A DNA stretch of 64,000 nt from Ulota crispa (lineage: Eukaryota > Streptophyta > Bryopsida > Orthotrichales > Orthotrichaceae), in the NCBI GenBank assembly GCA_963920765.1, contig OY987246.1, forward strand, positions 15,620,868 to 15,684,867. Direction: 5' to 3'. Below, piece after piece: positions 6,859 through 47,910 of this stretch (its first letter is position 1; every line of letters begins with the position of its first letter). Under the pieces are notes generated by a model that saw only the letters and a list, made by a program, of their open reading frames with translations, was not told the origin of the DNA and made no database searches. The translations under genes and the position numbers were made by a program.

Positions 6859-6862
6859 TTAA

Positions 6863-7811
6863 CCCTTAAAGGACCAATTGTCCACTCGGGGGACAAATGG
6901 ATTTTGGGCATGTACCTATAGCTAATTTATTTTTTGTGATTTTTTGAAAATTTTAATGAAGGTGGAGAATCCAAAGATCTACGTGGGCATCTAATTTTTT
7001 CTTCATTCCGACATTTATTGAAGAAGTTATGCATGAATTTCTGAAAAAGGGGGAGGGCGGGTAGCCGAACAAAAAAACTAAAATTGTATTTTTTAAAATA
7101 AATTTTGAAATTGGTTCTTTAGATTTTTATATATGTGAAAATCTTTGATTCATTGAATTTTAATTGATGAGATGAAAGTTATGAGAAGTATTAGTTTGCG
7201 GGTAGTTATGGGACTCCCAAACCATTCTTTTTGCCCCTTGAAAACTTTGTTACTTTACTTTTATGAGCTCTTTATGTTTTTTTTTTTTTTGACATTTTGT
7301 TTTTCCAAGTTGTAATAGACTAAGATTCCTTGGATTTTGACAGTTGGATCAAAGTAATTTAGATGTCTCAATTTTACATAAATTCTCCAACTTTGCCTAG
7401 TGTATATGCAAATTTCATGGCCTTATGGCATTGCAAGATTTTACAAAGTATGATTCACACCTCTAGTTCATTTGAAAACTCTCCCACATTTACCTAACTT
7501 GGTCTTCTACATGGGAAAAATAAACCTCAACTTTGCATAGAGCAATTTTTTTGATATAGGAGCCATCAAAGGCTTTTGAAATTTTTGGGCAACAGGGAAA
7601 AAAACTTTTTTTTTCACTTTAGATTTCAATATCTCACTCCTCTACTTCTAGGATGAGCTGAAATTTTTCCCACAAATACCTCCCATAGTCTATGGCAAGA
7701 TCTTACAGTTAAATTTTCAAAGAAACTTTTTTTCCTACCTTTCTATTCATTCCCCCAAAAGTGGCAATTTTCAGTGATTTTTAAAGAAAAAAGGGCTTGG
7801 TCCCTTAGGGG
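6863..7811. mobile_element. TTAA element B (subfamily 2, 949 bp)
   Basis: Flanked by TTAA at 6859-6862 and 7812-7815. Left terminus CCCTTAAAGGACCAA, right terminus the complement of CCCCTAAGGGACCAA. A subterminal palindrome (GTCCACTCGGGGGAC) lies near the left end and recurs in copies G and I. No coding capacity. The right TTAA is shared with the next element. Confidence 0.8.
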
Positions 7812-7815
7812 TTAA

Positions 7816-8468
7816 CCCCTAAATGCCCAAGCCACCAGATTTGGGTCTTTACAAAACTTTGAAGATGAATAAAACCTTATTGAATCATTAATTTCAGTAC
7901 TTTTTTTCAATATAAGTTTGTTTTGAGGTCTACTTTCAACATCAAAAATCTGATTTTGAAAATGAAAGTTGATGATTTTTCTACTCAAGATTTTGTACAA
8001 GGGTGTCCCTTGCAATCTTGAGTTTTTTTAGTGTAGGAAGATCTTGAAAATAAGCCTTAAATACACTAGAGCTTGGAGAAAAATCCACATTAGAATTCCA
8101 TTTAAAAAAATGTAGGAGTAGATTTTTAAAACCGTAAATTGAATAGAGTTAAACATGTAATGACCTTAAACCTCCTATTTTTTTAGTGACCAACTTTTCA
8201 TATTTGACATGTGAAATGAGGATTAGAAAGCTTTAAGTCACTTTTGCACTTTTAACACCCTCATGTTCAAACATTATAATCTTTCAAACTAAAAGTGATT
8301 TAGTGATATTGATGTGTTTTTCTTTTTCCATGTAATCTCTAACATGTTTAGTTTAAATTTGTATGCTTACAATTGAAAAAAACTTGATGGGATTTATGAA
8401 AAGGTTGATTGATTGTTAAGTTTCATGGAAAGTCCAAGAAGCCCAGATGGGGCTTGGGCATTTAAGGG
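7816..8468. mobile_element. TTAA element C (subfamily 1, 653 bp)
   Basis: Begins CCCCTAAATGCCCAAGCC after TTAA at 7812-7815 and ends GGCTTGGGCATTTAAGGG before TTAA at 8469-8472. Its interior matches element D at 9727-10369 in the same orientation. Non-coding. Confidence 0.85.
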
Positions 8469-8472
8469 TTAA

Positions 8473-9434: not shown

Positions 9435-10545
9435 TGTACAGTAGGGTACACTAATCTTACCAATTGCCCTTTTCAGTCATTCAATTTTTCTAGTGAAATG
9501 TGGATTATGATTCGTATATTTTTGTCAAAAAAATTATCATTGCAACTTTATGCAATCCCAAGCTCCCATGAAAGCTCCATTTGTGGTGAATTATTTTGTA
9601 AGAAATTCACGGTTTTATATGATAATTGAATGAAAAACATTGGTGATGAGTTTTTGAGATTGGATTCTGCAGATATGTAGGAAAAATCCATACACACATC
9701 TTCCATGCTAAAACAAACCCCCTTAACCTCTAAATGCGCAAGCAACCACATTTGGGTCTACAAATCTTTGAAGATGAATAAAACCTTTTCAAATCACTAT
9801 TTTCAGTATTTTTTTTCAATATAAGTTTGTTTTGAAGTTTGTTTTCAACATCAAAAATCTGGTTTTGAAAATTAATGTTCATGATTTTTCTACTCAAGAT
9901 TTTGTACAAGGGTGTCCACTGCAATCTTGAGTTTTCTAGTGTTGGAAGATCTTGAAAATGAACCTCAAACACACTAGAGCTTGGAGAAAAACCCACATTA
10001 GAAATCCATTTAAAAATTGTATAGGAGTAGATTTTTAGAGCCATAAATTGATTAAAGTCAGACATGTAATGACCTTAAACCCTCATATTTTTTGATGACC
10101 AACTTTTTAGACTTGACATGTGAAATGAGGATTAGAAGATTTCAAGTCACTTTTGCAATTTTAACACCCTCATGTTCAAACCTTATAATCTTTCAAACTA
10201 TAAGTGATATTGATGTGTTTTCTTTTTCCATGTAATCTCTAACATGTTTAGTTTTAATTTGTATTGTTACAACTGAAAAAAACTTGATGAAGTTTTTGAA
10301 AAGGTTGGTTGATTGTTAAGTTTCATGGAAATTCCAAGAAGCTCAAATAGGCCTTGGGCATTTAGGGGGTTAAGTAACAAAAATTTGATTTACAAATGAT
10401 TTTGATGAAACTTGTGATAGGCCCAAAATTTGTAAAATATGTATTTTTCTATGAAAATCAAATTTTGTTGTTTAGTTCATGTATTGTAACTAATATGTAT
10501 CTCTAAACATGATACATTGTTTACTTGATGAATAGCTAGTTTATA

Positions 10546-11761: not shown

Positions 11762-11765
11762 TTAA

Positions 11766-12418
11766 CCCCTAAATGCCCAAGGCCTATTTTGAGCCTCTAG
11801 GAATTTGCTCTAAACTTAACAAAAAGCCAACATTTTGATAAGTTGTATCAATTTATTTGAAATTATAACTATACAAATTCAAACGAGATATGTTAGATAT
11901 CAAATAGGAAAATAAAACACAACAATATTGCTTATGGATTGAAAGATTATAATGTTTAATCAAGAGGGTGTTAAAACTACATAAATGACTTCAAGTCTTT
12001 CAATCCTCTTTTCACATGTCAAATCTAAAAAAATGGTCGCATAAAAAAGATGAGGTTAAAGGACATAACATACATAACTCCAATCCATTTACAACTTTTC
12101 AAAATCTCTTTTTCAATTCTTTAAAATGAATTTATAGTGTGAAATTTTCTTCAAGATTTAGTGTATTTGAGGCTCATTTTCATGAGCTCTCAACACTAAA
12201 AAGTTAAGATTGCAATGGACACCTGTGCACAAAATCTTGAATAGAAAATTCACAATTAATAACTTTCAAAATCAGGTTTTTGATGCTAAAACTAGACTTC
12301 AAAAAGAATAATTTCAAAATACTAAATACTAAAATAGGCTAAATAGCAGATTAGTTAGGTTTTATTGAACTTCAAAATATTGTCGGCACCAAAATGTGGT
12401 GCCTTGGGCATTTATGGG
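11766..12418. mobile_element. TTAA element E (subfamily 1, inverted, 653 bp)
   Basis: Starts CCCCTAAATGCCCAAGGCC after TTAA (11762-11765) and ends GTGCCTTGGGCATTTATGGG before TTAA (12419-12422). The interior matches C and D in reverse orientation. Non-coding. Confidence 0.85.
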
Positions 12419-12500
12419 TTAAAGGTGGCATTTAGGATTGCAATTTAGGATTGCAATCTAGGAGTAAAGGTAATCAGAGTCATAATAAATAACTATGCTA

Positions 12501-13399: not shown

Positions 13400-14553
13400 A
13401 AGCGTCTCCAATGGACCACGCTAGCAAGTCCAATATATTTTGTTTGGTTTTTAATAGACAATAAATTTAACCCCTAAATACCTAAGGCACCACATTATGG
13501 TGTTGACAATACTTTAGACTTCTATAAAATCTAACTAAGTTGTTATGTTTAGTAGATTTTGTCTTTTAACTATTATATCTAAAGTCCAGTTTTAGCATCA
13601 AATTTTGATTTTGTAAATGATTGATTATGATTTTTTTATTCAAGATTTTGTGCGCATGTGTCCATTGCAATCTTGACTTTTTAGTGTTGAGAGCTCTGAT
13701 TTGGAAATGAACCTCAAATACACTAAACCTTGGAGAAAATTTTACACTAGAAATTCATTTAAAAAAAATTGTAGAGGAGATTTTGAAAAGCCTTAAATTG
13801 AGTGGAGTTGTGTATGTTATGTCCTTTAACCCCATATTTTTTATGTGACCATTTTTTTAGATTTGACATGTGAAAAGAGGATTGAAAGATTTCAAGTCAT
13901 TTTCACAATTTTAACACCCTCTTGATCAAACATTATAATCTTTCAATCCATAAAAGATGTTGTTGTGTTTTATTTTCCTATATGATTTCTAAAATATGAA
14001 GTTTGATTTTGTATGGTTACAACTCTAAAAGAAATGATACAACTTATCAAAAAAATTCTTTTTGTTCAACTTAGAAAAAATTCCTAGAAGCTCAAAAAGT
14101 GTCTTGGGCATTTAGGGGATAAGCATAAAAAATTTATACTTTGAAGGGCATGAAAAACATTGTTGTAAAATGTAATAAAATTTGGGTTTGAGCATTGAAT
14201 AATTTAGATATATCCCATTAATGTTAAAGAACTTCCAAAAATTTAAAGATTTCTCCAAATCAAGCCTAAATAAAGAAAACTCAGCCAAAAGGACAACAAT
14301 GGTAGTACTCTGTTGGCTAAAGTTTCTTTATTTGAACTAGATTTGGAGAAAATTTTGTATTTTTTGGAAGCTAGCTAACATTTGATGGGATGCATCTAAA
14401 TTACCCAACGCCCAAACCCAAATTTTATTAAGTTTTCACAACAATATTTTTAATGCCCTTCAAACCATAAAAGTTTTATGTTTAAATTTATTGTCTACTA
14501 AAGATCAAACAAGATATATCAGGCATGCTTGCCGGGTCCATTGGAGATGCTTT
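13400..14553. mobile_element. palindromic MITE hosting element F
   Basis: Left terminus AAAGCGTCTCCAATGGACC pairs with GGTCCATTGGAGATGCTTT at the right end. Internal arms also pair: GACAATAAATTTAA at about 13457 with TTAAATTTATTGTC at about 14483. Element F interrupts the left arm. Confidence 0.65.
13471..14118. mobile_element. TTAA element F (subfamily 1, 648 bp)
   Basis: Starts CCCCTAAATACCTAAGGC after TTAA (13467-13470) and ends TCTTGGGCATTTAGGGG. The right flank is ATAA, a one-base departure from TTAA. The interior matches elements C, D, E and K. The host palindrome's other arm keeps the unoccupied site at about 14480. Confidence 0.85.
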
Positions 14554-14823
14554 AAGAGCATCATCAATCCAACCCTCCAAACAACTCATCAAACATATTA
14601 CATTTTCTTTTTTGGTGTAAAATAAGAGCGTTTGATTATAATCATTGAAAGAGTACAAAAAGACTCCTTGAAGTAAATAAAATGATATACGGATTTGAAG
14701 ATTGGACATAGCCCATGGAATGCAAGTTAGAAGACAATAGAGATGGCAAATCATGATGAATGGTAATAGAACACCAGATTTTGAAAATCTAATGTTTCAT
14801 TACCATGGTTTTCCGTTTCTTAA

Positions 14824-16557
14824 CCCCTAAAGGCCCAAGCTCATTTTTATGTGAAAGTCACTAAAAACTGCCACTTTTGGAGGAATGAGTAGAAAAGTAG
14901 GAAAAAAGTTTTTTTGAGAATTCAACCATAGAATCTTGCCCTAGACTATGAGAGGTACTTGCTTGGGGAGTTACTCTTCAATTTTTAGTAAACTACGTGA
15001 GATAAAAATATGGTCAATTTTATTCATTGGAGGTAAATTTTATATTTTTGTTAGAAATACCATAGCATCAAAAATATGTCTCTTACTTCATTACATGTAA
15101 AATAGGGTGGTGAATAATGCCTTCATTTTAGAATTCAGTAGGAAAAAATAGGGTAGGAAATATAGGATCCTCTAGAGAGTATTTAGTAGGATGAGTTTGA
15201 TTATTATTGTTTGACAAGTTTGAATGAGAAATTAAGTACATTCTGTCCAAGTTTTAAAAAGAATGGAGGGAAATTTGTTCAAAATTACTTAAATAGCTAG
15301 GCGGGAGCATGCAAGCTTGTGTGTGATATGGAATTGTGATAGGTTCTTTGCTTAAGCTTTTGTGTGGTAGTGGAGTGTAATTGGTTGTCTGCATAAGATT
15401 GTGTGCGGTATAGGACTAATTGGTTGTTTGCTTTAGCTTCATGTTGTTTGCTGCGTTTTCTCTTTCAAAGGTGTTTTTTTGTAATTCAAATGCTTGTAAG
15501 GGCCAAAGCCTTTTATAAACCCATTGTATGCACATAATTTTTTCTTATGATACTTTGTGTTTGTAAAAAAAAATAGGGCCTAAAAAATTAGGTCATATAA
15601 CCATTTAGAAATAAGCATAAGGTACCTTAAAATACACTAAAGTAGCTTTTTATCTAAAGAAAGGGAGGGAAAAATTACCCTAAAAAATCTAAATACCCCC
15701 CATTTAATTACCCTATTATTGCAAGTGGTATCCAATTGTAAAAAGGTGTGACCCCCCCAAGGGTACTTGTGGGAAAAAACTAGCTCATTTTAGATGTAGA
15801 AGAGTGAGATATTGACATCTGAAGTGGCAAAAAAAGTTTTTTTCTTGCTGCCCAACAATTTTAGAAGCCTTTAACCACTCTTATAGGAAAAAATTGCTCT
15901 ACACAAAGTTGAGGTTTAATTCCCTCATGTAGAAGGTCAAGTTAGGTATAGGTTGGAGAATTTTCAAATCAATTGGAGGTGTACAACATACTTCAAAAAA
16001 TCTTTGAATGCCAAAAGGCCATGAAATTTGCAAATACACTAGGCAAACTTGGAGGCTTTTTGTAAAATTCAGAAATTTGAACTACATTAGTCTAAGTTTT
16101 GAAAAGCAAGGGCTCTTACCCTAGTGCAATTTGGAAGAAAAAATGATTAAGAAACAAATACTCAAACTACTCAGAAAACTAAAGTGCCAAATTTTACAAT
16201 GGGCAAAAGGAATGGAGGTTTGGAGTCCCTCAAGAGAGGCACCTTCCATTCCATTGCCCTTTGCCCAAGTGTCCACGCCTTGTGCCTACAAGGGCTGACC
16301 CTCTTTGGAGTCAATACCCACTTATAAAGAAGAGGCCTTGCTTAAACTGTCCCTTCTCCCCTAGTTTTAGAAAAATTCTTGATAACTTCTCAATTGAATG
16401 TTTGATTGAAACAAAAATTAGACGCTCGCATAGATCTTGGAATTCCCCACCTTCAATAAAAATCTCACAAAATCACACAAACTAGTTTAGTTATAGGTTT
16501 ATAGGTACATGCCCAAAATCCATTTGTCCCCTGAGGGGACATTTGGGCCTTTAGGGG
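14824..16557. mobile_element. TTAA element G (subfamily 2, inverted, carries an insertion)
   Basis: Starts CCCCTAAAGGCCCAAGC after TTAA (14820-14823) and ends GGGCCTTTAGGGG before TTAA (16558-16561). Its interior is the reverse of element B. Removing the 800-bp insertion and its 8-bp duplication leaves 926 bp, close to B (949). The palindrome GTCCCCTGAGGGGAC lies near its right end. Confidence 0.8.
14962..15761. mobile_element. hAT-like non-autonomous element nested in G
   Basis: Flanked by the 8-bp direct repeat GGTACTTG (14954-14961 and 15762-15769). Its ends CTTGGGGAGTTAC and GTGACCCCCCCAAG are imperfect inverted repeats. Element B has one uninterrupted GGTATTTG (minus strand, about 7670) at the same place, so the insertion is clear. 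An 8-bp duplication suits hAT, but the termini are not the common CAGGG type. The interior has short repeats around GTGTG and ATTGGTTG. Confidence 0.7.
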
Positions 16558-16561
16558 TTAA

Positions 16562-17523
16562 CCCTTTAACGCTCGGTCAACTAGTTCTTGGTCAATTTTT
16601 GCCTTATTCAGCTAGTAGGGAGTGTATGACATGGAATTAGGGAATGAGACAAAGGGGACGTGGGTTGAGAATTTGATAACAAATGGTTTGGAAGAGTGAG
16701 CGTGGTTTTTTGAGCTGCCATGTGGTCAGAGGTTTGAAATAGTGAGGGTTGACTGGCTGAAAATACAGCAAAGAATGGAGAAAGATGGTCAGGGGTCGTA
16801 TAAGGTAAGAGGCTCGTAAACCAACCATCTAAGAGCTGAAATTGACTTTTGGGGTGGTGGAACTTCTTGAAATATTTTTTTGTAAATTTTCCTTGAAAGA
16901 CAAGAGGAATTGGCATCTAACTCAAGTTATTTTGTATTTTTTAGAGTAATGTGGAATTAGTTATGAAATATTGAAGTGGAAAGGTCCTAGGGCTTTAAAA
17001 TGGTGCACCTCCTCAAATGTACGTCTACTGTACATTATGGAAAGGCTCTGAATAAGACCTACTGACAGGGATCATATGGGGAGATGAGTGGAATTAGTGC
17101 CCTAACGGAGTTCAAGCCTCCAACCTTAGAATGTGGATTTGTACGTGCTAAATGGGAAGATGTGATTGCCATTGTGGCCCATGCGAGACTGCGAGCCTGC
17201 TTATTCCCCTAACACTCATAAAACCGCTAAAGATTGCCCACGTGGACCACTCTAAATGTAGAAGAGGAACTCGTAAAGAAATACGGGCCAGGAGCATAGC
17301 CCGTCCACCGTATGTATACAAAAATGTATACAATTGTAAAGATACTTGCTTTGGATTGTAGGAAATTCTAAAAAAATGATGCATACCACTAATCCTAGTA
17401 AACCCAGTTCCATTATTATGGTTGGATTTTTGGTAGACCACCGCATACTCTGGTAAACCCATTTTTCCCAAATGTGCAAATATAGCCCCGCCCACCCCAA
17501 AATCAACCATGGTCGTTAAAGGG
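16562..17523. mobile_element. TTAA element H (962 bp)
   Basis: Begins CCCTTTAACGCTCGGTC after the TTAA shared with G (16558-16561) and ends GACCATGG-TCGTTAAAGGG-like sequence before TTAA (17524-17527). The CCCTTTAACG terminus is close to vertebrate piggyBac-type termini as I know them. Short open frames of up to 127 codons inside show no transposase motif. Confidence 0.75.
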
Positions 17524-17526
17524 TTA

Positions 17527-17925
17527 AGCATGGTTTGCCATATTATTTGGCTTTTAGCTTGCTTACAATGGGCTCTATTTTTGTTGTCAAATTTCTTAAT
17601 CCCTATAGTATTTTGTTTATTTGAAGACTTTGTTTAATATACCCTTTCAATGGTATAATGCAAAACAACATAATGCAACAAAGACCTAATAACCATATGA
17701 GTTGTTCATGATACCCCTCAATAAATTGAAACTTTTTGTACCTATAAGCAAGATGATTTTAGGATAAAAGTCACAAAACAAACTAGAATTGTTGCTTGCC
17801 AATTTTTTTTAATGACAATCAGAGTTGGCTACTACTTGACATTTTTGTCCAAAAAGTTGTTGATATATAGTGTCTAGCACTATAAAGTGTACAGATTCTA
17901 ATTTTACACTAGGCAAAAAATAGTA
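17527..17925. repeat. diverged relative of the long-inverted-repeat element at 29677-30348
   Basis: GCATGGTTTGCCATATTATTT at the start and ACACTAGGCAAAAAATAGTA at the end resemble the two ends of the right arm at 30150-30348 (GCATGGCTTGCCGTGTTGTT and ACACTAGTCAAAAAATAGCA). The middle is expanded and diverged. Confidence 0.45.
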
Positions 17926-19160: not shown

Positions 19161-19579
19161 ATTTAATGGTAGAATGGGGTAGGTGTAAAGATATGCAAGA
19201 CACATTACATATGAGTAAGAAATCTCTTGAAACATAAACCTTGAATCCCTTACTGCATATTTGCATTTATATTGTAAAATTGTCATGCATGAGTTTTAGA
19301 AAATTTTGGCCCTAGTAATCATTTTTAAATAATTTTGGATGTTATGACCTTCTTCATCTATATATAATAAATTAGGTTATATGTTGGTCGGTATTAGTTG
19401 GAGCACAAATAACCCAATCTATTATATAGATAGATAAATGGAAACTTACGGGTAAAAAAACTTGCATATGGAAAACATGCTTTTTAGCTTTTGAAAGTAC
19501 TTTTGTAGGATACATGGTCAAAGTGTGACATGTTAGCCCATAAGTCACTCTTGTGACGAAGTGGTTGTTGCTCACTTAA

Positions 19580-20345
19580 CCCCTAAGCCTCTTGCTAAGA
19601 AAATTCAGCATACCTCCAACATGAAACCTTCAACACATTCTTCAAGTTTTTGGAAAGTTGAACAAGTAATCACATAATTCAGACCGGTCATTCTATACCC
19701 AACTGTAAATCAAATGTTTTAAACCGATTTGATTTCAAATCCAAGTAAATCTGCAAAATCCCACCGTTGAGAATCTCATATTTTCCAATTTGGGCAACAA
19801 TTCAAAATATGGATTTTGGACTTTCTTGTAATATTTTCTCAAAAAAAAGATTTACTTAATGGCTAATCTCATGAGATTGTGTCTTGCTATACTTGATGGA
19901 AAAAAAACTCCACAAATGGAAAAAAACTCCCAAAGATATGGTCACTCAAAGTAGCTAGATTCCACTAGCTCCTTACTTTAGAGCTATAAAAACCTTGCCC
20001 AAATCAAGAAAAAAAAAGTGACACATCACCAAACTTCTCCCTTGTACAATACAAGACATGAGAGCACCCATCCCATCCGCTCTTTAAGCCGCTCCCTTTG
20101 TTTTCCCAAAGACATTCTTCTCCTAATTGTTGAAAAAATAGAACATTTTCCATATTCCATGTAAAATCTAGAGCAAAGGAGGCGCTTCAGGGAACAACAA
20201 GCCAATTAGAAAATTTTCTTGAATTAACAACTCCATCTGGTCTTGAATGGCAGACCAAAATTTGAATTAAAAATGCCTCTTTTGTATACTTTCACACCTC
20301 CAAGCACCCCCTTTGGCCATAATGGGCTCTTTGGTCCTTTAGGGG
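19580..20345. mobile_element. TTAA element J (766 bp)
   Basis: Starts CCCCTAAGCCTCTTGC after TTAA (19576-19579) and ends TTGGTCCTTTAGGGG before TTAA (20346-20349). The two ends share only about eight terminal bases, so it may be a diverged copy or an internally rearranged member of subfamily 2. Confidence 0.65.
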
Positions 20346-20349
20346 TTAA

Positions 20350-21582: not shown

Positions 21583-21586
21583 TTAA

Positions 21587-22218
21587 CCCCTATATGCCTG
21601 TTGCATCAAATTTTGGTGTTTATAATATTCTGAAGCTCAATAAACTTAACTACGTTACTATTTTTAATAGTTTACATTTTGGATTTATTCTTTGTGAAGT
21701 CTAATTTTAGGATCAACAATTTGATTTTGAAGATGATCAATTATGAGTTTTTTATTCAAGCTTTTGTGCGAGGGTCTCGACTTTCTCTAGTGTTGAGAGA
21801 TCTTGGAAATGAGCCTCAAATACACTAAATCTTGGAGAAAAACTAACATAAAAAATTCATTTGAAAAAATTGTAGAAAATATTTTGAAAATCTATAAAGT
21901 GATTGGGGTTATGTATGTTATTTCCTTTGACCTTAAATTTTTTGATGATCATTTTTTTAGATCCAACATGTAAAAAGAGGATTCAAAAGCTTCAAGTCAT
22001 TTTTGTAGTTTTAACACCCTCATGATCAACATAATAATCTTTCAATCCATTAGTGATATTATTGTGCTTTCTTTTCTTGTGTGACCTTTAACATATCTCG
22101 TTTGAATTTGTACATTTACCATTCAAAAGAACTCGATACAATTCATTAAAATGTTGCTTTTTCATTCAATTTGAAAACAAGTTCCTAAAAGCCCAAAAAG
22201 GCCTCAGGCATTTAGAGG
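21587..22218. mobile_element. TTAA element K (subfamily 1, 632 bp)
   Basis: Starts CCCCTATATGCCTGTTGC after TTAA (21583-21586) and ends CCTCAGGCATTTAGAGG before TTAA (22219-22222). The interior aligns with element F in the same orientation. Non-coding and more diverged than C and D. Confidence 0.8.
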
Positions 22219-22679
22219 TTAACTTGAAATCCCAAATTTAAGACTTCACATCAATTTAAGAATATTATAAAGCCAAAGCTTAAAAAGCCTACATCCAACT
22301 TACACTCTCAAAACATAAGAATTTATCGAAAATTGTTCACGTAATAATAAATGCTAGCGTCAAAATTTCTTTGTAAGTATTTTTAGTGATTGGTCACTCA
22401 ATATGCAAGTTCAAGTTTTATTTTTTCACATTTCATATATAAACAAACATCACATGGTTACTTCTACTTTCGTTTTATGAGTTTGTAAGTTTTGTTATTT
22501 TTACTTCTTAGTTTGCACTTGAATTTGCCTCAATCCAAACCTATTGTACTGTACAGTATCCGGAGCAAAACATACGTACTTTTTATATCACATTAACATC
22601 TCTCCACTCACCTATCATTCCTTGTGATTATAATTTTTTTCTATTTTACTCATACATTGAGACTAAGTTTTTACCTTTG
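22219..22679. other. intergenic, nothing recognised
   Basis: AT-rich. ACTGTACAGTATCC at about 22550 resembles the TGTACA terminus of the neighbouring long-inverted-repeat family but has no clear partner. Confidence 0.35.
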
Positions 22680-23045: not shown

Positions 23046-23102
23046 ATTATGCAAGTTCTTTAAAAAGCAAAACAGGTGGTGCATGTGTTTCTTTCCGGGT
23101 AT

Positions 23103-30760: not shown

Positions 30761-31852
30761 CCATGATTTCAAATTTCCTTTAAATTTTAAGTGCTCAAGC
30801 TATAAATAAATAAAAAGTGGTAACTTGTTTAAAAATCTAATAATAACTCATTATTTGTTAAATTGGGAAAAAGCTTACATATTGGAACTTTTGAAGGTTT
30901 CAGGAGGCCTCCTGAAATCAAGCTTAGCGGTTTTTTTTTGTACACGTGTCCTCACTTGAGAGGAGGAATTTGCGAGGGAAAAAATCATAGTGGCTCAAAC
31001 TGAATTTGATACCTTTGAATCTGATTTAAGGTGACTTTTTGGGTTTAACCCCTAAAGGACTGTTGTCCCTTCGGGGGACAAGTGGGAGTTTGGGCATGTA
31101 CCTTTGGATAAGTCACTTTGTGTGATTTTTTGAAACTTTTATTGAAGGTGGGGAATTCAAAGATCTACGTTGGCATTTAATTTTTTCCTCATTCCGACAA
31201 TTACTGAAGAAGTTACGCAAGAATTTCTGAAAATTTGGGGAGGACTGCCCGCCTGGGCAGCCCAAAAAACTTCTTTAAATTTAATTTTTTTTAAATTAAT
31301 TCTTTTTAAAACTAAATACTTTTTAAAAATTAATTGAATCTTTTTAGAATTAAATTTTGAAAAATTGGCTCTTTACATTTTTTTATAGGCAAGAAGCTTT
31401 GAATCATTCAATTTCAATCAATGAGATCAACATTATGAGGAGTTTTTGTTTGCGGGTAGTTATGGATTCTCTACTTTAAAATAAGCTTTGAAGTCCTTTA
31501 TTTTACTCAATTTTCATTAATTTGGAAAAAAATTAAACCAAAGGAAGTAGATTGTTTATCACAACATTTAGACCATTAGGATTGGCAATTTTCATATTAA
31601 TAATTAAATTCTTAACAATTTAGTGATTTGACTCATTCTCTACTTCTTTTTACTTATTGATTTTTCTTATGTGTTTTGTAGTTCCAATTGATTTGAAAAT
31701 TCTCCCACACATACCTAATTTGATCTCCTACATGGAAAAAAAAAAGCACAACTTTGGGTAGAGCAACTTTTTAGTTATAAGAGTGGTCAAAGGCTTCTGA
31801 AAATTTGGGGCAGCATGAAAAAAAAAATTTCTTTTCACTTTAAATGTAAATA

Positions 31853-34751
31853 CACTAGTAGAAAACTCCATCCAAAACTACAGAAAACCAACAGTTTCTT
31901 GTTGTTTTGGGAACTTGCCCACGCTAATTGACTAATTTAACAAAATTTTGTAAAAAACTAAATATGTTTTGTTGATTCTTTGAGAATCTTTAGGGAATCT
32001 TTAGAGGATCTTTTAAAAATCTTCTTGGAATCTTTAAGAATCTTTTCAAGATTTCTAAAAATCTTTAAGAATCTTTTCAAGATTTTAGAATCTTTGAGAA
32101 TATTTGAGAACATTTGAGAATCTTTGAGAATCTTCTTGGAATTTTTGAAAATCTTTTATGAATCTTTGAGAATTTTTGGGAATCTTCATGAATCTTTTGG
32201 GAATCTTTTTGGAATCTTTGATAATCTTTGAAAATCCTTGAGAATCTTTGAGAATATTTTGGAATATTTGAGAATCTTTGGAAATGTTTTAGGAATTTTG
32301 AATTCTTTTGAGAATTTTGGAAAATCTTTGAGAATCTTCTTGGAATCTTCTTGGAATCTACTCAAAAGCTTTGAGAAGCTTTGAGAAGCTTTAAAAATCT
32401 TTGAGAATCTTTGAGAATTTTCAAGAACTTTTTTGGAATCTTTGAGAATCTCTTTAAAATCTTTATGAAATTTGTTAAAATACTTCAAAATATTTATAAA
32501 AACAAAATCTCTTAGACTAAATTAGAGTCCTTTTAGAATCTTTTTGTAATTCATCAAAGTATTTTAAAATGTTTTTTAATAAAAAAACTATTAGAATAAT
32601 TTAGGTTTGTTTTTGAAATCTTTCTAAAATCTTTTTGGACTTCATTAAAATGTTTTGAAGTTTTAAAAAATAAAAGAAGTTTTCAAAAAAATTAGAATCT
32701 TTTAGAATTTTGAGTGGACATTGACTAGTTTTATTTTCTTTATTTTTCACAATTTGGTTAGATTTAAAATTAGCAACCGTTAAAGTCAAATAAAAACATG
32801 ACCATAATAACAAAAAAATCAACAGTTTTCTGATGATCTGGACACTTTGGTCACAACTTCACTAATTCAAAAAAAATTTATATAAAAAGTACAATATCTT
32901 GTTGTTTTATATACCACAATTTCTTTACAAAAAAATATAAAACATGCCCCTCAATTCTTTGAAAAAATCATATATGTCCCTCAAAGATTAAAAGTACCAA
33001 AAATATCTTTCTTTTTTGTGTGAATATCAACAATGCTTCTAATATATTGGGAAAATATTAAAAATGCTCCTCAACTATTTTAAATTATTTATATCTTTGT
33101 GTTATATGATAACCAAGTGTATAGTTTAATGCACATTCTTACAAAAAACCAAAGGTGATTTTTACATTTCAAATAACACAAGGATATATTTAACATTTCC
33201 AAATAGAAGAGCATTTATATTATTTTTCCAAAACAATAGGAATATAATTGATATTCCTACAAAAAAAACAGGAATATTTTTTATGTTTCAAATATTTTCG
33301 GCATAAACTTGATATTTTGAAAGATTTAAAGAGCGTTTTTAGTATTTTTCCTTCTATTACTAACCAAATGAATTAAAAAGAAAAAATCGTATAAAATATT
33401 TTTATAAGCTTTAAAAGATGGAAATTGATATGTGTACCACACCCTTCCAATTACTATACCACATTCCAAGGTAAATTTTAGATTTCTACCATCAAAAAGT
33501 TGAATTTGAAAATTTTGAATTCAAATTTGGACTTAGAGACCATGACAATGTCTAGAACCATAAAAAAGTTGTAGTTCAACCACTCAATGAAAAGGTTTAG
33601 TTAGGGAGAAAATTATTACTTTTATTTTTGTTTGTAAAAAAAATAAGCTTTTTCATTGGGTGTTGTTGAATTGCAATTTTTTTATATGGTCCTAGACAAT
33701 ATCATGGTCTCTAAGTCCAAATCTGAATTCAAAATTCTCAAACTCAAATTTTTGATGATATAAATCTAAAATTTACCTTGAGATTGTGATATAGTAGTTC
33801 AAAGGGTGTGGTACACATATTAATGCCATTAAAAGTGTCCAAAATTATTCAAAAGTCTATAGAATTTTGATTTTATAATTGCAAAGTTTTTATTCCGTAA
33901 CTTTTCACAATTTCGTGTTATTTAAAGCTATCAAACTATGGAGGTTATTTTAACAGAATAAGGTTTTTTTACAAAAAAAGTTAGCACTAAAAATTATATA
34001 AAAATGAATCCAACCTTCACCTACAGCAATCCTTTTGAGATTTGTGAATTTCAATAAAAATTTATAAACAAAATCAAAAGGATGGAAATAAACAATTTTT
34101 TTAAATTTTCTAAACACCTTCTCTGACTTCAGCTCATAACTTTTGATAAAAAGATTGAAATCCAAAAAAAATAATCGGAGGTGAAAGTATAATACATTTA
34201 CCAACTTTTCTTAGTTCTAAGTTTTTTGAAAAAAAGTACTTTAATAGGCCAAAATAACCTCCAAAGTCTATTGGCTTGAACATTTAATGTACAAATAGAA
34301 TCATGATTCTATTGTGCACATGAGTGAGTGCATATGTGCTATTGGTTGTGAGTGGTGTTATAGGCATGTGGGGTGTGAGCCCGGAGGTGGGGAAATCGAA
34401 CCTCTCTGCCCGGCCCTTCTCGGTGGCAACCCTATGGCTATTGGGGAGCGTCCTATCCTAGCAAGAAATCATTTTTATTTTTTTATTAAAAAAATATCAA
34501 AATTTTATGAAAAATATATATTTAATTTTTTTTTAAAAAGTGAACAACATAAAACAAGTAAAAAAATAACAAAAAATCAACAAAAAATTAACAAAAAGCA
34601 ACAAAAAATTAACAAAAAGCAACAAATAATCAACAAAAAATCAACATACTCTTGTTGAAAAGTACCCAAATCAACTTGACCAAATCAACAGAAAAAATCA
34701 ACAGTTTTTGGTTGAAATTTTGTTAATTTTGTGCAAAAATTTCTACTAGTG
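31853..34751. mobile_element. non-autonomous CACTA (En/Spm-type) element
   Basis: Left end CACTAGTAGAAA, right end TTTCTACTAGTG, with the 3-bp duplication ATA on both sides (31850-31852 and 34752-34754). Subterminal AACAGTTT-type motifs occur at both ends (about 31889 and 34697). The 2.9-kb interior has a degenerate array of GAATCTTTGAGAATC-type units at about 31970-32490, a CAACAAAAAATCAACA-type array at about 34560-34650 and a nested fold-back element. No transposase open frame is present. Confidence 0.9.
33420..33828. mobile_element. fold-back MITE (TGATATGYGTACCACACC), copy 1
   Basis: GGAAATTGATATGTGTACCA at the left pairs with TGGTACACATATTAATGCC at the right, and long internal arms pair (AATTTTGAATTCAAATTTGG with its complement). 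A second copy lies at 35021-35430. This copy sits inside the CACTA element, making a third nesting level. Confidence 0.75.
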
Positions 34752-35020
34752 ATATCTCACTCATCTCCATCTAGAATGACCTGATTTTTTTTCCACAGGT
34801 ACCTAATCTAGTCTAGAACAAGATCCTATGGTTGGATTTCCCAAATTTTTTAAAAAAAAACTACCTTCTTACTAACCCCCCCAAAAGTGGCAATTTTGAG
34901 TGATTTTCATTGAAAAATTGGCTCAGTCTTTTAGGGGTTAAGGTGGAGTACAAAATGGTACCCTCATTTTTCCCGATTTAATGAATAAGGCTTTTAATTG
35001 TTTATCGTGAATTTCAAAAT

Positions 35021-35430
35021 GGGAATTGATATGCGTACCACACCTTCTTGACTATTCCACCACACCTCAGGGTAAATGTTAGATTTCTACCACCAAAAAC
35101 CTGAATTTGAGAATTTTGAATTCAGATTTGAATTTAGAGACCTGGATATTGTTTAGAACCATAAAAAAAATGTTGTAATTGAACAACACCCAATGAAAAA
35201 GCTTAGCTTGTGGGAAAAGTATAACTTTTACTTTTGTTAATAAAAAAGATAAGTTTTTTCATTGAATATTGTTCAATTAGAACTTTTTTGTGATTCTAAA
35301 CAAAACCACGGTCTCTAAATCTAAATCTGAATTCCAAATTCTCAAATTCAGGTTTTTGATGTTAGAAATCTAAAATTTACCCCGGGTCTGGTGGGCCAGT
35401 CAAGAAGATGTGGTACGCATATCACTTCCC
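35021..35430. mobile_element. fold-back MITE (TGATATGYGTACCACACC), copy 2
   Basis: GGGAATTGATATGCGTACCA at the left and TGGTACGCATATCACTTCCC at the right, with internal arms as in copy 1. Non-coding. Confidence 0.75.
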
Positions 35431-37764: not shown

Positions 37765-38868
37765 TCAAAAATTGCTACACTGGAAGGGTGACCAGGATTG
37801 CTGCTGATGTGGCTGGTAGCCATTGAGATTGTATCCATAAGCAGACGACATAGCAACAGGCGGCATCTGATTCCAGTTATACTCATTGGGCTCATACTCA
37901 GAGTCGTCGACTTGGGGAAATACCGGAGGGGGAACCTCACTGTAATAACACCCGTTGGTTCTGTACTCAGTACTTGCTGGCTGATAGTCATTGTAAACGC
38001 CGCTCGATGCGTAGTCAGATATGGCAGGTTCATAGCTGCTAGTAAAATAAGTGGACCTAGTGGGCTCAAATGAGAAAGGGACGGCCATCTCGAAGTCGAA
38101 TGGAGTATCGTGATGGAAACTCTGAGTCTGATCCACTGGAAAGGAATCTGGGATGTCATCCCAATCAATCTCCGCAGCAGCGTCTCGTGACGTCAACACG
38201 TACTCCTCTTGTTGCTGATCAGGAGAGTCGGTATTGTAATGATCATCGTTTGCGTCGTTACACGATGTTGATGCTTCTTCGTCTTCCTGGCGATGACAAG
38301 ACTGTCTCCCGGACTGTATCCCGGACTGCATGGCCAGCTTGCCATACTCCTTCACCACCTTGCGCAGCTGCACAGCAAAGTCCTGTTTTGGCAAGTTGGG
38401 TGGGATGCGGGGGATCTGGCGGTAGACTGGATGGCCGTCGAAGTTGAGCGACGTCTTGCTGCCGAAGTAGGTGATGGCCACGTCGTAAGCGTAGGCTGCT
38501 TCTTCAGCGGAGCCGTACGTGCCCAGCCACCAGGTCTTGCTCAGTTTTGGCGGGCGGATCTCGGCCACCCACTTGTGCTGTTCGGAGCGGAAGCGCACTC
38601 CCTTGTAATTCATCGAGGTGCTGCCATCGTACGAGGTGGAATTGCAGTCTCCAGGTACTGGCGGGGTCGAATTAGAGCGGGAGCATTGTCCCCTCCGTGC
38701 ATCCCCACCGCGGTGCACGTTCATGTGGCCCCCCAACGACTGGCCCGAAGTGAATCCGTTGCCGCATACTTTGCACGTGTATGTCCGAGCTTGCGAGTTG
38801 GAGCGTCCGCCAGGGGAGCCATAATTGCTTTCGCTGCTGTCGCTGCTGCCGGAGTCCATTCTTAACAT
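37765..38868 (-). CDS. transcription factor with C2H2 finger plus AP2/ERF domain
   Basis: An intronless 367-residue frame. Residues about 32-54 form a plant Q-type C2H2 finger: CKVC, twelve residues, then HMNVH, with QSLGGH in place of the usual QALGGH. Residues about 88-145 form one AP2/ERF domain: YKGVRFRSEQHKWVAEIR, then WWLGTYGSAEEAAYAYDVA and a closing LNFDGHP. In ERF numbering the domain has Val at position 14, as in DREB proteins, but Pro rather than Glu or Asp at 19, so it fits neither DREB nor ERF neatly. The long C-terminal region is acidic and rich in Tyr, Ser, Pro and Gln (for example DIDWDDIPDSF-like and PFDFEM), suggesting an activation domain. It probably acts in the nucleus as a sequence-specific regulator; targets are unknown. 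I know no standard family name for this finger-AP2 order. The start is the first Met; a second Met lies three codons on. Confidence 0.85.
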   Translation of the reverse strand: MLRMDSGSSDSSESNYGSPGGRSNSQARTYTCKVCGNGFTSGQSLGGHMNVHRGGDARRGQCSRSNSTPPVPGDCNSTSYDGSTSMNYKGVRFRSEQHKWVAEIRPPKLSKTWWLGTYGSAEEAAYAYDVAITYFGSKTSLNFDGHPVYRQIPRIPPNLPKQDFAVQLRKVVKEYGKLAMQSGIQSGRQSCHRQEDEEASTSCNDANDDHYNTDSPDQQQEEYVLTSRDAAAEIDWDDIPDSFPVDQTQSFHHDTPFDFEMAVPFSFEPTRSTYFTSSYEPAISDYASSGVYNDYQPASTEYRTNGCYYSEVPPPVFPQVDDSEYEPNEYNWNQMPPVAMSSAYGYNLNGYQPHQQQSWSPFQCSNF

Positions 38869-40085
38869 TGGGAGGGGAATCTGCTGGCTTGTGCTACGAT
38901 TATCGAATCTTCTCAGTACTGGACTTTGTAACTCTTGCAGAGTGGTCGAGCTAGTAGTACCTTATGAACCTTGGAGGGCTGGAATAACAGACCGGGCTAC
39001 TTACTGCCTCACCATTGATACTCAATTGTGTGTGGCGAAAACTGAATGCAAGAACCACATGGAACTTGCAGATTCCAATATCCTTCGATCTTGCCTCCCA
39101 TAAACGCATGTGATGACTGGATGAGAGAGTATGACGGATTGTTACCAAATGGAGGGACTGAGATGAGCAGCCTGCTTGAGACTGCTGTACACTACGAATT
39201 TGACGGATAAGGCAATCGTCTGATCAATTGGAGTCGGTACGACTGCGAGATGGGTCGCCTGTGATCTCTCTTCTTACGAGGTTTGAAATGCACGCTAGCT
39301 ATTGCCTGCAAATGAACAATGTGCAAACTAGATTCCGTCAAGTTCTGATGCTGTTTCAGCTGCGGTTGTTTACAAAGCAAGGCATTTATCAAGAAACTAT
39401 AGCACAAAATTAAGCCTGCTCCCTTGTTGACTGATTCCTTTAGAATTGAAATCTTCAATTACAGCTTCAAGAACGAGCCAGCTGTTATCGATTCCGACAT
39501 GAACACGAACTCTAAGATCGAGCGAATCATTCCTAATATCATCGCTATAGATTGACGGAGTAACAACTATCTGTACGTCCCATGCTCAAGTCGAAAACAT
39601 AATTTTCCGACAATCACCGAATCTTGCACAAACCGGGTGATCAAGTTTCGGTATTCTACACAACACATTGGACCAGTTATTTGAATAAAGCGCAGCAATA
39701 ATCGACTAACTTACAGCTTCGATGTGAGGCTCGTTGATTCTTGAAACTCCGGGCGAACCAGCAGCTTCTCACACAAAATCACAAGCAGCAGAAACAAGTC
39801 ACGTCGACGACACAACCGAGGCGGAAATCTCACCGCCAGGCAGACTCTCTAAGGTTGGTTGCCGCCACAACCACAATGCTCTAATGTCAACTGCTGCTAA
39901 AAAACTGCACTTTGCGACAAGGCAGGAGTTGGATGGGGGCGGAGGCTTTAAATCTCGCACTTGGGGTTCACTGATTTACCTCACAACTGCAGACATACAT
40001 AAAACCGGAATCGGAACCAGCAGCGCGCCTTCATCTGAACGAACGGAGGCTGGAAGGAATCTTCCCCTTTGCCCCTTCACAAGGA
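38869..40085 (-). promoter_or_regulatory. upstream region of the AP2/ERF gene
   Basis: About 1.2 kb of unique, moderately GC-rich sequence. A TTTAAA motif at about 39953, read on the minus strand, could be a TATA-like element, implying a leader of about 1 kb, possibly with an intron. A 159-codon plus-strand frame (39734-40213) overlaps it and runs into a transposon, with no recognised domain. Confidence 0.3.
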
Positions 40086-40603
40086 TGAACTTCAAAAGGG
40101 CTCAGTTTACTGCACATATGTCGATGTGGGGCCAGGGTGGAAAAGCACTGGATATTTACCATCGGGTGATTGATTTTGAGAATTTTGAATTTATAGTTAG
40201 ATTTAACCCCTGAACGCCTAGAGTTATTTTAAGATTTAGGAGAAAATGAGAGGTTTAATGGCCACTATAGCTTGGAAAATTACATTTAGAAAAAGTGACC
40301 GTAGGATTTGAAAAAGGACTACCTTCTTTGCTGATGGGGACCAGTCATGACTGTTTTCACAATACAAATTAAGAAAAAAAATGAGATAAAGTTGTGGGCC
40401 CAACAACAAGATCCTGTTGTTGGAGCGCTTAAGGGTTAAACATCTTGCTTCAGTTTAGGATCTTGGAAGAGGATACAATTGAGCAACAAAAAAAATAAGG
40501 GGTAAATTATAACTATTACCCTTGTTTGGAAAAAAACTTGACCCTTTCCACCTTGATCCCATATTGAAATAATCATGTGCGGTAAACTGAGCACTTCAAA
40601 AGG
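40086..40603. mobile_element. inverted-repeat element hosting element L
   Basis: CTTCAAAAGGGCTCAGTTTA at the left pairs with TAAACTGAGCACTTCAAAAG at the right, with about 55 bp of imperfect complementarity. A fragment of the same family lies near 11445. Element L is inserted at its TTAA. Confidence 0.6.
40207..40435. mobile_element. TTAA element L (subfamily 3, 229 bp)
   Basis: Starts CCCCTGAACGCCTAGAG after TTAA (40203-40206) and ends TTGGAGCGCTTAAGGG before TTAA (40436-40439). Element Q at 41737-41957 is an inverted copy. Confidence 0.8.
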
Positions 40604-40792
40604 TGGTAGAAGAGACATCAATGATCCCAAATATGATTTCACTTTTAGCACAAGTGGCTAAAAACTCCGACTGCTAAATAAGCTAAAAATTCAAATTTAA
40701 CAAATTTAACACATGATAGTTTACATTTTTTTAGCTGCAAGAAAATAATTTTGTTACAATGAAAGCAATCTTGCAAAATTTAGCTAGTTTAA

Positions 40793-41027
40793 CCCTTGAA
40801 GGGTCCTTGGGCTATAGAGATACAGTACCAATACGGTTGCAATTAATATTTAGAAGTTTGAATTAGCTGGAAATTAAGTGTTACAACCATACATATTAAA
40901 GGGTTGTACGATGGTGGGTGCATGATTTTTTTTGGAAAGCCCTCAGAGCAGCTCAAATACGGCTGTATATACGGCTGAATATACGGCCATACATATAGCT
41001 AGAGATGGCTGATGGGCCGTTCAAGGG
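40793..41027. mobile_element. TTAA element M (235 bp)
   Basis: Starts CCCTTGAAGGGTCC after TTAA (40789-40792) and ends GGGCCGTTCAAGGG before TTAA (41028-41031). The interior differs from N, O and P. The right TTAA is shared with N. Confidence 0.75.
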
Positions 41028-41031
41028 TTAA

Positions 41032-41266
41032 CCCTTGAACAACTGAGCAACCCTTTGCGACGAGTATAATACGGGGTATTTTTTTGTATTTGGAGTGCAT
41101 CTACACCTTTATTACATTTGAGATCAACAAAGAAGTTAGAATATAGATCAATGCGGTTCTAGTGAGGTAGTCAAGATCCCAAATTAAAAAAGAAAAAATT
41201 GGTAGCAAATGCCAATTATACAATAGCATACATAGTATGTATTATAGTAGCTTGGTTGTTTCAAGG
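41032..41266. mobile_element. TTAA element N (subfamily 4, 235 bp)
   Basis: Starts CCCTTGAACAACTGAGC and ends GCTTGGTTGTTTCAAGG. It shares TTAA 41028-41031 with M and TTAA 41267-41270 with O. Confidence 0.8.
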
Positions 41267-41270
41267 TTAA

Positions 41271-41500
41271 CCCTTGACCGACCGAGCTACTACAATACAT
41301 AGTATGTATGTTGCTGGCATTTGCTACCAATAAAGAGTTTCAATTTGGGATCTTGACTACCTCACTAGAACACCATTGATCTATTTTGTAACTTTTTTAC
41401 AATTGATCTCAAATGTAATAAAAGGTGTGGATGCATTCCAAATACAAGAAAAATACTCCGTATTGTACTAGTCGCAAAGGCCTGCTCGGTCATTCAAGGG
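41271..41500. mobile_element. TTAA element O (subfamily 4, inverted, 230 bp)
   Basis: Starts CCCTTGACCGACCGAGC and ends GCTCGGTCATTCAAGGG. The interior is the reverse of N and P. It shares TTAA 41501-41504 with P. Confidence 0.8.
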
Positions 41501-41504
41501 TTAA

Positions 41505-41964
41505 CCCTTAAACAACCAAGGAGCCCTTTGCGGCCAATACAGTATTTTGTATTTTCTAGTATTTGGAATGCATCCACACCTTTACTACATTTGAGATCAA
41601 CAAATAAGTTAGAATATAGATCAATGTGGTTCTAGTGAGCTAGTCAAGATCTCAAATCAAAAAATATATATATTGGTAGCAAATGCCAATTATACGGCAG
41701 CGTATTTACTATGCAATACATAGAGTGGTTGTATAACCCTTAAGCGCCCCATCGACAGTATATTGTTGATGGGGCCCACCACTTCATCTTTAAAAAAAAA
41801 AATTGTATGGTGAAAACAGACATGGTTTATCTCCATCAATAAAGAATGTAGTCTTTTTTCAAATCCTATGGTCACTTGGATGTAGTTTTCCAAGCTGTGG
41901 TGGCCATTAAACCCCCATTTTCTCCTAAATTCAACAATAACTCTGGGCGCTCAGGGGTTAAGGG
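41505..41964. mobile_element. TTAA element P (subfamily 4), interrupted by Q near its right end
   Basis: Starts CCCTTAAACAACC after TTAA (41501-41504). From the left end the expected right end is GGTTGTTTAAGGG. The sequence instead reads GGTTGTATAA, then element Q, then TTAAGGG, then TTAA (41965-41968). Q therefore lies in the TTAA inside P's own right terminus, and P ends at 41964. Confidence 0.75.
41737..41957. mobile_element. TTAA element Q (subfamily 3, inside P's terminus)
   Basis: Starts CCCTTAAGCGCCCCATCG after ATAA (41733-41736) and ends CTGGGCGCTCAGGGG before TTAA (41958-41961). Inverted copy of L. Confidence 0.75.
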
Positions 41965-45648: not shown

Positions 45649-45652
45649 TTAA

Positions 45653-45890
45653 CCCCTAAAAGATGTTGTTGTTTTGTATACGGACTCCCCTATTGTATAC
45701 GGATGGGGTATTTGGATAGCACGTGAATCCCATTGGAGTTGTAAATTTCAAGCCAAGTCAAAAACATAATATTAGTCAACTTGGATTTTTTGGGGAATTT
45801 TTGATATTTGTTGTAAAAAAAATTTTCAAGTACTAAATGGTTCTCCTACAAATACATACATCACTTTTGGTAGGCAACATGCTTTAGGGG
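45653..45890. mobile_element. TTAA element S (238 bp)
   Basis: Starts CCCCTAAAAGATGTTG after TTAA (45649-45652) and ends GCAACATGCTTTAGGGG before TTAA (45891-45894). Inside the left end GTATACGGACTCCCC is followed by GTATACGGATGGGG, a short direct repeat. Confidence 0.8.
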
Positions 45891-47910
45891 TTAAATAAGA
45901 CTAGACTCTCATAAATGCATCAACATCAAAATAAAACTTGAATATCCCAATTTTGAATTCATTAGAATTTGCCCTAGCAAATTACACAAGCCATTTCAAT
46001 TATTGCTACCCACACTATTATGTTAGCTTGCACTAATTCAAAGAATAAGTGCATTTGAGAGGCGCACTAATGAAGTAATCAACAACAATCTAGGATAATT
46101 CAACATGCTATGAGCTACGATATTAAGATACTGTTTTAAATATTGTGACTTCCATCATGATTTTGATGGGCTTTTTAAACCATTTGGAACTTCAAATATG
46201 TACAATGAAGAAGTCAGCCATAACATCAACAAAGTCAATTGAAGCCTGGAATAAATTTCCACTTCTATGGGTTAATCACATTTGAATTTACAGCTCATCA
46301 AACCATTGAAATAATTACCCCTTGAAATAATTACAAGAACCCTAGACCGAGGTCTTGCACTAAACAGACTCTTGCACCAATTGAAATAAGGGAAAATTTG
46401 ATGGATATCCTAAAAATTTGCAGTATTTGTACATATGTCCTTAGTTTTTCAAAAACAACACAAATACCGTTGATATGTTTTCATAATTGCCAAAATACCC
46501 TTCTCCATAGTTAATAGGGACTATTTTTGTGGATCTCTTGGATGTCCTAGAGTTGGAGGGGTTCAACAAGGTTTTTTCTTTGGCGTCACAGTGATATGTT
46601 GTCCCTCCACTGGAGCATATTTGGAGGGAAGGAAGTTCAGTGGCCAAAACTTGAGACTTGTTGCCAGAAAAGAAAAAATTGGGCTTCAAAGGGGTGAATT
46701 GGAGGCTCTTGGAGGGTTTGGATCCGCTGAAGCTTTCTGTGGGAGAGACTTGGAGGGAGGGCCAATTTGAAAATGTGTGAGTTTTTCTCAAAATCAGTCT
46801 CTTTTAAATTTATCGTCTCTTCTTACAAAATTTGATTAAAACTTAACTAATAAAATGAGTAAGTTACTTGAGTCAAAGTTATGCAAAAAAAAATATTTTT
46901 TTATTGTTAATATTTTCTAAAAAAATTCATACACAAGTTTCATACATCTGGATTTCAATATACAAATTTTTGTTCATGAAGAAAAAATTTAATTAATAAT
47001 TTTATATCTTTTTTTTCTACAATTAGAGCTTTTGCACCTCAGCCACTAGGTTGGGTTTTGCTTCTTGACAAGTAGCCGGGTGGGAGCAACAGCACGCTAG
47101 CATTGTGAATCAAACACCTCCACCGTGGGCAAGGGTTTGCAACACCGCCCCATTCAAATGTCATTGCCCCCTACTAAACAACCACTGCCATTGAGCCACT
47201 TTTCTTCTCCAAATTGATTCTTTTAGCTCCATACAAATTCATTTCTTAAGTAAATAGGATCATGTCATGTATCAACCATTGATTGGCTTGTAGCCCCAAC
47301 ATTTTCCCTCTTTGCTTGCCAAAGGGAGGAGAATGTTGGAGCTGCAACACCTTGGCCATCAACTCACCCCCTTGGCCTAATGTTGTCAACACTAAGTGGA
47401 TGGCAAGCTCCCCTCACCCACCTAACCGGTGTTGTGGGCCAAGGTGGAGATGGTCTTATACTCTTACTAATTGTACCCATGTTTTTTTCTTTTTTTCTTT
47501 TTTCTAAGATAAGAATTCTTAAGTTAGAATAATAGAAGCAATTTAATAATTTTCATGTATTAGCTTAAATTACTTAAGAGTTTAATAATGATTTGTTGGG
47601 TGTTTTTGTCAAAAAAAGAATAATTAACAAATATGTTGGTATTTCATATTTATTCAAAATATATATAAGTATTTCAATCACATTAAGTATTGAACATTAC
47701 ATGTTGTGATAAATGTTTTGTATCTAAAATGATTTTTCTATTTTAAAATTTATTAAAAAATACAAAATTTAATGCCACATGTTGCATGGGGGCTTGTTTA
47801 AGATAGGGGTCCAACCTTCCAACCCTCACAAAGCCTAAAACTAGAAATTGGATGTGAAATTAGAATTAGAGAGAATCTTGGACCCCATCCAACATAGAAA
47901 GGACTAGTGT

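Follow-up and report, generated by a model that had tools for sequence, protein, structure and literature searches.

The window analysed here is a stretch of 64,000 nucleotides from the genome of Ulota crispa (assembly GCA_963920765.1, contig OY987246.1; G000:C5:15620868-15684867; genome of 275 Mb in 157 contigs) and contains short elements that start with CCC-type bases directly after a TTAA and end in the complementary bases directly before another TTAA. All two-ended elements (n=17, labelled B to Q and S) were re-read, and together they occupy 13,257 bases, or 20.7% of the window. The string TTAACCC occurs 34 times, compared to 10.14 ± 2.78 expected from 100 dinucleotide shuffles, none of which reached 34. 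We hold it to be highly probable that all 17 belong to the piggyBac superfamily as non-autonomous elements of the miniature inverted-repeat transposable element (MITE) type, mobilised in trans by the DDE_Tnp_1_7 transposase of larger elements. The original prediction of seventeen two-ended, TTAA-flanked copies was borne out, with exact TTAA in 31 of 34 flank readings. Because six tetramers are common to neighbouring elements, these readings correspond to 28 distinct tetramers, 26 of which are exactly TTAA; the other two are ATAA, one to the right of F and one common to the right of P and the left of Q.

Self-comparison of the window defined four groups (coordinates are given without strand, lengths as the bases between the TTAAs). 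The first, with 70-88% identity among its members, comprises C (7812..8472, 653 bp, with the terminal inverted repeat (TIR) CCCCTAAATGCCCAAG), D (9723..10373, 643 bp, 88% identical to C), E (11762..12422, 653 bp, in the orientation opposite to C), F (13467..14122, 648 bp) and K (21583..22222, 632 bp). The second comprises B (6859..7815, 949 bp, TIR CCCCTAAAGGACCAA; it shares the TTAA at 7812-7815 with C), G (14820..16561, 1734 bp, with inserted DNA and oriented opposite to B) and J (31045..34941, 3889 bp). L (40203..40439, 229 bp) pairs with Q (41733..41961, 221 bp), and N (41028..41270, 235 bp), O (41267..41504, 230 bp) and P (41501..41736, 228 bp) form the fourth group. No other match in the window was found at E 1e-6 for H (16558..17527, 962 bp including a 328-bp insert), I (19576..20349, 766 bp), M (40789..41031, 235 bp) and S (45649..45894, 238 bp). 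The predicted grouping thus held for C/D/E/F/K, L/Q and N/O/P and for the separate standing of H, M and S, but it had to be corrected in two places: I, thought to be a copy of B, shares the right tip CCCCTAAAGGACCAA with no alignable similarity beyond it, and J, which had been set apart, belongs to the B group. J was also considered as an autonomous element and rejected, as it is a copy from the B group that contains ~3 kb of other DNA and has open stretches of at most 119 aa; J also includes a low-complexity, tandem-like stretch with repeated KDSQRFSKI-type frames (31962-32521).

The elements carry the 5'-CCC...GGG-3' termini and short TIRs that characterise piggyBac, with some exceptions at the tips. 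The predicted start in CCCC, CCCT or CCTC and the complementary end were found generally (D begins with CCTC, K ends with GAGG), but N ends with AAGG and the right end of P has decayed and lacks the GGG. M, N, O, P and Q lie end to end (40789-41961), each holding its TTAA or ATAA in common with the next element, so that M and N, N and O, and O and P each share a TTAA. Four TTAAs are common to neighbours in the window versus 0.55 expected, and five versus 4.48 expected at other loci; since there is no excess at these other loci, we claim no general preference for such sites. Within B, C, G, H, I and J we detected no transposase-like open stretch (longest 125 aa). The short elements show no coding capacity for a transposase and would need one supplied in trans.

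A profile search of the genome with PF13843 (DDE_Tnp_1_7, piggyBac; 116 of 528 candidates scored) returned at least 120 matches that pass the curated cut-off, the best of them with an E value of 1.3e-73, spread over contigs C1-C11. Internal stops interrupt 110 of the 120, hence present-day movement is not implied. A raw tally of the stops in the 120 matches gave 252 TAG, 157 TGA and 61 TAA; deamination after CG and CHG methylation would produce such an excess of TAG and TGA over TAA. Two loci, G000:C1:1180709-1181995 and G000:C8:19570986-19572215, have stop-free DDE_Tnp_1_7 matches in two pieces each, with frames of 563 and 472 aa; they are possibly domesticated genes or intact divergent elements.

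Three transposase loci were read, L089 (contig C4, lineage T1), L090 (C2, T2) and L091 (C5, T3), which re-scored against DDE_Tnp_1_7 at 8e-60, 4e-67 and 3e-59, respectively. The T1, T2 and T3 transposases are 31-39% identical to one another, and that of L089 is 25% identical to T. ni piggyBac. Searching PDB at E<=1 with a profile of the three transposases matched only piggyBat (9c0f, 3.2e-37) and T. ni piggyBac (6x67/6x68, 1.2e-30). The motifs TIDE/TVDE, DN(W/F/Y)F and GVD..DQ are present. Taking D268, D346 and D447 to be the catalytic aspartates of T. ni piggyBac, the equivalents of the first two are D212 and D297 of L089, within a DE and a DN that are invariant in 4/4 aligned sequences; at the third position, L090 and the second L091 piece read GVD..DQ and L089 reads GVN..DQ. 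The catalytic aspartates of piggyBac are therefore present among the plant transposases. In L091 a Cys-rich tail without a Pfam match was noted by eye, a possible counterpart of the C-terminal cysteine-rich domain of piggyBac. An N-terminal exon of the transposase gene (L089:225-572, L095, L093, L097, L090:4868-5077) is conserved with 64-69% identity within T1 and 29% to T2, and the larger frames that enclose it in L089 and L090 gave no Pfam match.

The link between the miniature elements and these transposases is most direct for H. The right end of L089, TTAA followed by CCCTTTAGCGACCATGGTTGATTGG, agrees with that of H, TTAA followed by CCCTTTAACGACCATGGTTGATTTT, in 25 of the 30 nt after TTAA. 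Three further copies of the terminal 436 bases of L089 were found, two of which lie in whole elements of ~5.7 kb. One of them (C9:10039205-10044938) ends in TTAG|CCCTTTAAGGCTTGG and TTAA|CCTTTTAGCGTC, encloses the PF13843 match C9:10040946-10041956 and is identical to H at 23/30 nt on the left and 21/30 on the right. The other (C7:1348077-1353808) ends in TTAA|CCCTTTAACGCTTGG and TTAA|TCCTTTAGCGC, carries the N-terminal exon and agrees with H at 22/30 (left) and 23/30 nt (right). The right end of the third copy, on C8, is TTAA|CCCTTTAGCACC. As both of its ends match the T1 elements on C9 and C7, the most fitting reading of H is a T1-type element that has lost internal sequence; a repeat of another family, 328 bp long (16801-17128, ends TAAGGTAAGAGGCTCG...CCTTA), interrupts it. 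This repeat is probably a TA-type MITE; with 40 of 2,922 candidates scored, it has at least 40 other matches in the genome, and the H copy at L060 lacks it. A DDE_Tnp_1_7 gene within an element with the same ends was thus found for H, whose assignment to piggyBac is confirmed. The superfamily inference of the original prediction is supported accordingly, by the DDE_Tnp_1_7 matches, by the ends common to H and the T1 elements and, for the C-group terminus, by position plus homology.

Both large groups have many relatives elsewhere. B has at least 40 genome matches besides those of the window, with 85-89% identity (40 of 7,530 first-look candidates scored), and C at least 42, of which 39 have 88-93% identity and three are partial with 75-87% (40 of 3,284 scored). 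The first-look candidate numbers of our searches (7,530, 3,284, 2,922, 4,276, 1,715 and 81), of which 40 were scored in every case, should not be taken as copy numbers. Pattern counts are of exact matches only and therefore lower bounds, with approximately the first 100 places listed per pattern; coordinate lists were compared by eye.

For the C group, the terminus TGCCCAAG appears tied to a second transposase lineage by position and homology, a connection that we consider well supported. L107, the DNA downstream of L091, and L108, the DNA downstream of the transposase C4:5936056-5937153, are 79% identical. In L044 a homologous copy extends outward by another 132 bases to the end TTTA|CCCCTAAATGCCCAAGGGTGTTTTTC, where the first 16 bases of CCCCTAAATGCCCAAGGGTGTTTTTC are the C-group terminus. 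The CCCCTAAATGCCCAAGGGTGTTTTTC end (with N at one place) occurs 246 times in the genome (control 0); of the 13 occurrences on C1 below 7.1 Mb, 11 appear in the list of TTAA-preceded termini as well. It lies 133-139 bases outside in 4 of the 15 T3-downstream homologues within the listed range, the exact sequence being absent there in the other 11. At C2:36767924-36767949 this end sits 1.94 kb downstream of the transposase C2:36765124-36766008 in the right orientation. Likewise, CTAA plus the exact 16-mer (C4:5939175-5939194) is found 2.04 kb upstream of the transposase C4:5936056-5937153, again in the right orientation, a placement for which we estimate ~0.07 coincidences from the 100 listed [ACG]TAA sites. 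A 200-base stretch at C4, considered as the place of the sought right end, lacks it and is homologous to the T3 3' region instead. The genome search with L091-downstream DNA (4,276 first-look candidates) was dominated by a 405-bp palindromic repeat. A near-palindromic repeat of ~400 bp at 33470-33780 and 35066-35386 of the window belongs to the family of the insert downstream of L091.

The ends of T2 conform to the same pattern. With 1.9 kb downstream of L090 as query (40 of 81 candidates scored), at least 42 rows were returned in addition to that of L090 itself. Of these, 26 start exactly at query position 362, another 8 start no more than four bases away, and the remaining 8 are inner pieces. 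Seven of the 26 were read over 70 bases around this point, and in 7/7 TTAA directly precedes CCC(C/T)TTAG. In two of these seven (C1:12154085 and C1:199414), the matches extend to the DNA beside the transposase frame, and neither has a listed PF13843 match. Another row, C2:21311256-21311678, ends 1.64 kb downstream of the PF13843 match C2:21309041-21310042, in the right orientation.

The group of AAGGACCAA (B/G/J), I, L/Q, M, N/O/P and S are assigned to piggyBac by TTAA and CCC ends only; we regard this assignment as very likely for B and as likely for the remaining groups. Kolobok and Sola3 are TTAA-using superfamilies as well, and it is conceivable, if improbable, that L/Q, M, N/O/P, S, I and perhaps B belong to one of these, with only H and the C group being piggyBac. 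The small groups and B have no end match to a transposase, only two lineages have ends linked to window elements, and TTAA by itself would also be compatible with Kolobok or Sola3 for the unlinked groups. However, the tips of these groups keep the CCC(C/T)T pattern of T1-T3, the common B tip CCCCTAAAGGACCAAG differs from that of C at only 2 of 16 bases, and the 120 DDE_Tnp_1_7 matches offer candidate partners.

Genome-wide flanks of the C group identify the duplicated unit. Its 16-nt terminus CCCCTAAATGCCCAAG occurs exactly 1,593 + 1,651 = 3,244 times, with no occurrence of the control read backwards. It is preceded by TTAA in 1,351 + 1,391 = 2,742 cases and by [ACG]TAA in 60 + 63 = 123, so that the outer T is present at 2,742 of 2,865 NTAA flanks (95.7%). 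With a TA duplication the outer base would be free at every end, and with a TTA or TAA duplication at half of the ends; these counts therefore show TTAA, rather than TA or TTA, to be the duplicated unit. Consistent with this, L056 holds a C-group copy nested in another, with TTAA on both sides of the insert and a single TTAA in the uninterrupted copy (C of the window), and three copies have equal flanks of four bases other than TTAA (CTAA/CTAA in L002, TTAT/TTAT in L003, ATAA/ATAA in L031). Among the fetched B copies, TTAA was found at 25/29 left and 21/27 right flanks with both flanks equal in 22/27; among the C copies, the values were 26/31, 23/31 and 22/31 (mutated, shifted and unequal flanks were kept in the denominators, and the window's own copies L001 and L029 are included). 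The elements thus have the four-base TTAA target duplication of piggyBac, and the genome-wide flanks of the C-group terminus are of TTAA rather than of TA or TTA type, which would have contradicted the original prediction. Neither did we meet another transposase family with these ends, although other families were not searched for.

On the same evidence, we give very little credence to Tc1/mariner (Stowaway-like) elements with a TA duplication, ACCC ends and a chance preference for TTAA. Filled sites would look identical on paper, and other short repeats that look TA-type are present in this genome, yet a T precedes TAACCCC... in 2,742 of 2,865 cases, the CTAA, TTAT and ATAA duplications comprise four bases, the nested copy at L056 shows TTAA, and the ends are common with DDE_Tnp_1_7 elements. 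The earlier argument against a TA duplication, that it would not fix the outer base, was confirmed by these flanks. A PIF/Harbinger (Tourist-like) origin with TTA or TAA duplications is just as implausible, since three of the four flank bases would be compatible but a free outer base is expected at half of the ends and only 123 of the 2,865 NTAA flanks of the C group lack the T.

Several observations weigh against reading all 17 elements as piggyBac derivatives. In addition to the ends of B/G/J, I, L/Q, M, N/O/P and S, which are unmatched to any transposase element, the transposase pieces have no match anywhere in the window, which agrees with the prediction that it contains no transposase. 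L089 has an N at the equivalent of D447, and its left end lacks the terminal CCCTTTAA, with an ungapped identity to H of 9/30; the left subterminal sequence, judged by eye, resembles that of H once a deletion is allowed for. The C7 element has the N-terminal exon only and no PF13843 match among those listed, and the 2,001 bases read at C8 (L093) did not contain the left end of that copy. No individual C-group element was read that has both ends and a transposase, and the positional links were found post hoc; TTTA rather than TTAA flanks the T3-type end in L044, and the right end of T3 was not reached within 500 further bases downstream of L091 (L107). The flank of L090 itself at the T2 end is CCAT. 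Moreover, 502 of the 3,244 C-group termini are not preceded by TTAA, 379 of them having some other change.

According to PMC7351741, piggyBac transposase binds the element ends, forms a TTAA-containing hairpin and joins the ends to another TTAA, and excision restores the site. By analogy with this biochemistry, the short elements would be cut and pasted into TTAA sites by a transposase supplied in trans by larger elements (5.7 kb in T1). The transposase would bind their ends and cut them via a hairpin on the TTAA overhang, excision would be seamless and restore the site, and the excised ends would be joined to a new TTAA. The anatomy of the elements fits the visible part of this mechanism, from which we infer binding, excision and any current activity. 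We lean, by a narrow margin of belief, towards a broader scenario, in which old and diversified piggyBac lineages of the plant's own (31-39% identity), with a larger element and an extra N-terminal exon outside Pfam, seeded thousands of TTAA-flanked miniatures. If true, piggyBac would have been a main force among the DNA transposons of at least one land-plant genome.

The window also contains other features. On the minus strand, 37765-38961 encodes a protein with AP2 and C2H2_6 domains, which fits a plant, and 28457-29524 an STT3 subunit. A long foldback with 422-nt arms (23099-23520 and 23585-24006) that are 98% complementary encloses a loop of 64 nt.

The elements described here resemble T. 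ni piggyBac (6x67/6x68) and piggyBat (9c0f) in the TTAA duplication, the CCC...GGG ends and a DDE_Tnp_1_7 transposase with shared motifs. They differ from animal piggyBac in their plant host and in length, ~5.7 kb for T1 elements compared to ~2.5 kb for T. ni piggyBac, and from the latter also in the N-terminal exon without a Pfam match. PiggyBac is mostly treated as a superfamily of animals, fungi and protists. The original prediction cites it as usually described as absent or rare in land plants; 'absent' is too strong, because surveys already list PiggyBac for them: PMC4438587 has it in a table of superfamilies present in all groups examined, land plants included, and PMC8086355 states that piggyBac-like elements (PBLEs) occur in plants. 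PMC10004981 also names PiggyBac as a superfamily of angiosperm MITEs and PMC10794571 as one of plants, while the repeat tables for Ceratopteris and Stipa include 1,230 elements (PMC6890710) and 1 element (PMC8319324), respectively. Unlike our elements, the Ceratopteris, Stipa and angiosperm entries are, in the parts accessible, counts or names without end-matched transposase elements (PMC6890710, PMC8319324, PMC10004981). Short elements attributed to piggyBac are likewise reported, as far as these sources could be seen, as animal MITEs from Helicoverpa (PMC9033116) and coral (PMC2872659), unlike which the present case concerns a plant genome and thousands of termini. Among titles and abstracts, with partial coverage that included few subscription journals, we found no published land-plant TTAA miniature elements matched to piggyBac transposases; given this coverage, the absence of an earlier description is weak evidence of novelty. 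The superfamily itself was already known in plants, and what stands out here is its abundance, the diversity of its lineages and the end match of plant miniatures to transposase-bearing partners. Plant records of piggyBac are mostly table entries, whereas this genome combines thousands of TTAA-flanked termini with at least three lineages and more than 100 recognisable matches to the transposase. It makes the spread, silencing and MITE reduction of piggyBac in a plant open to study and provides native plant ends and transposases for comparison with the animal-derived tool.

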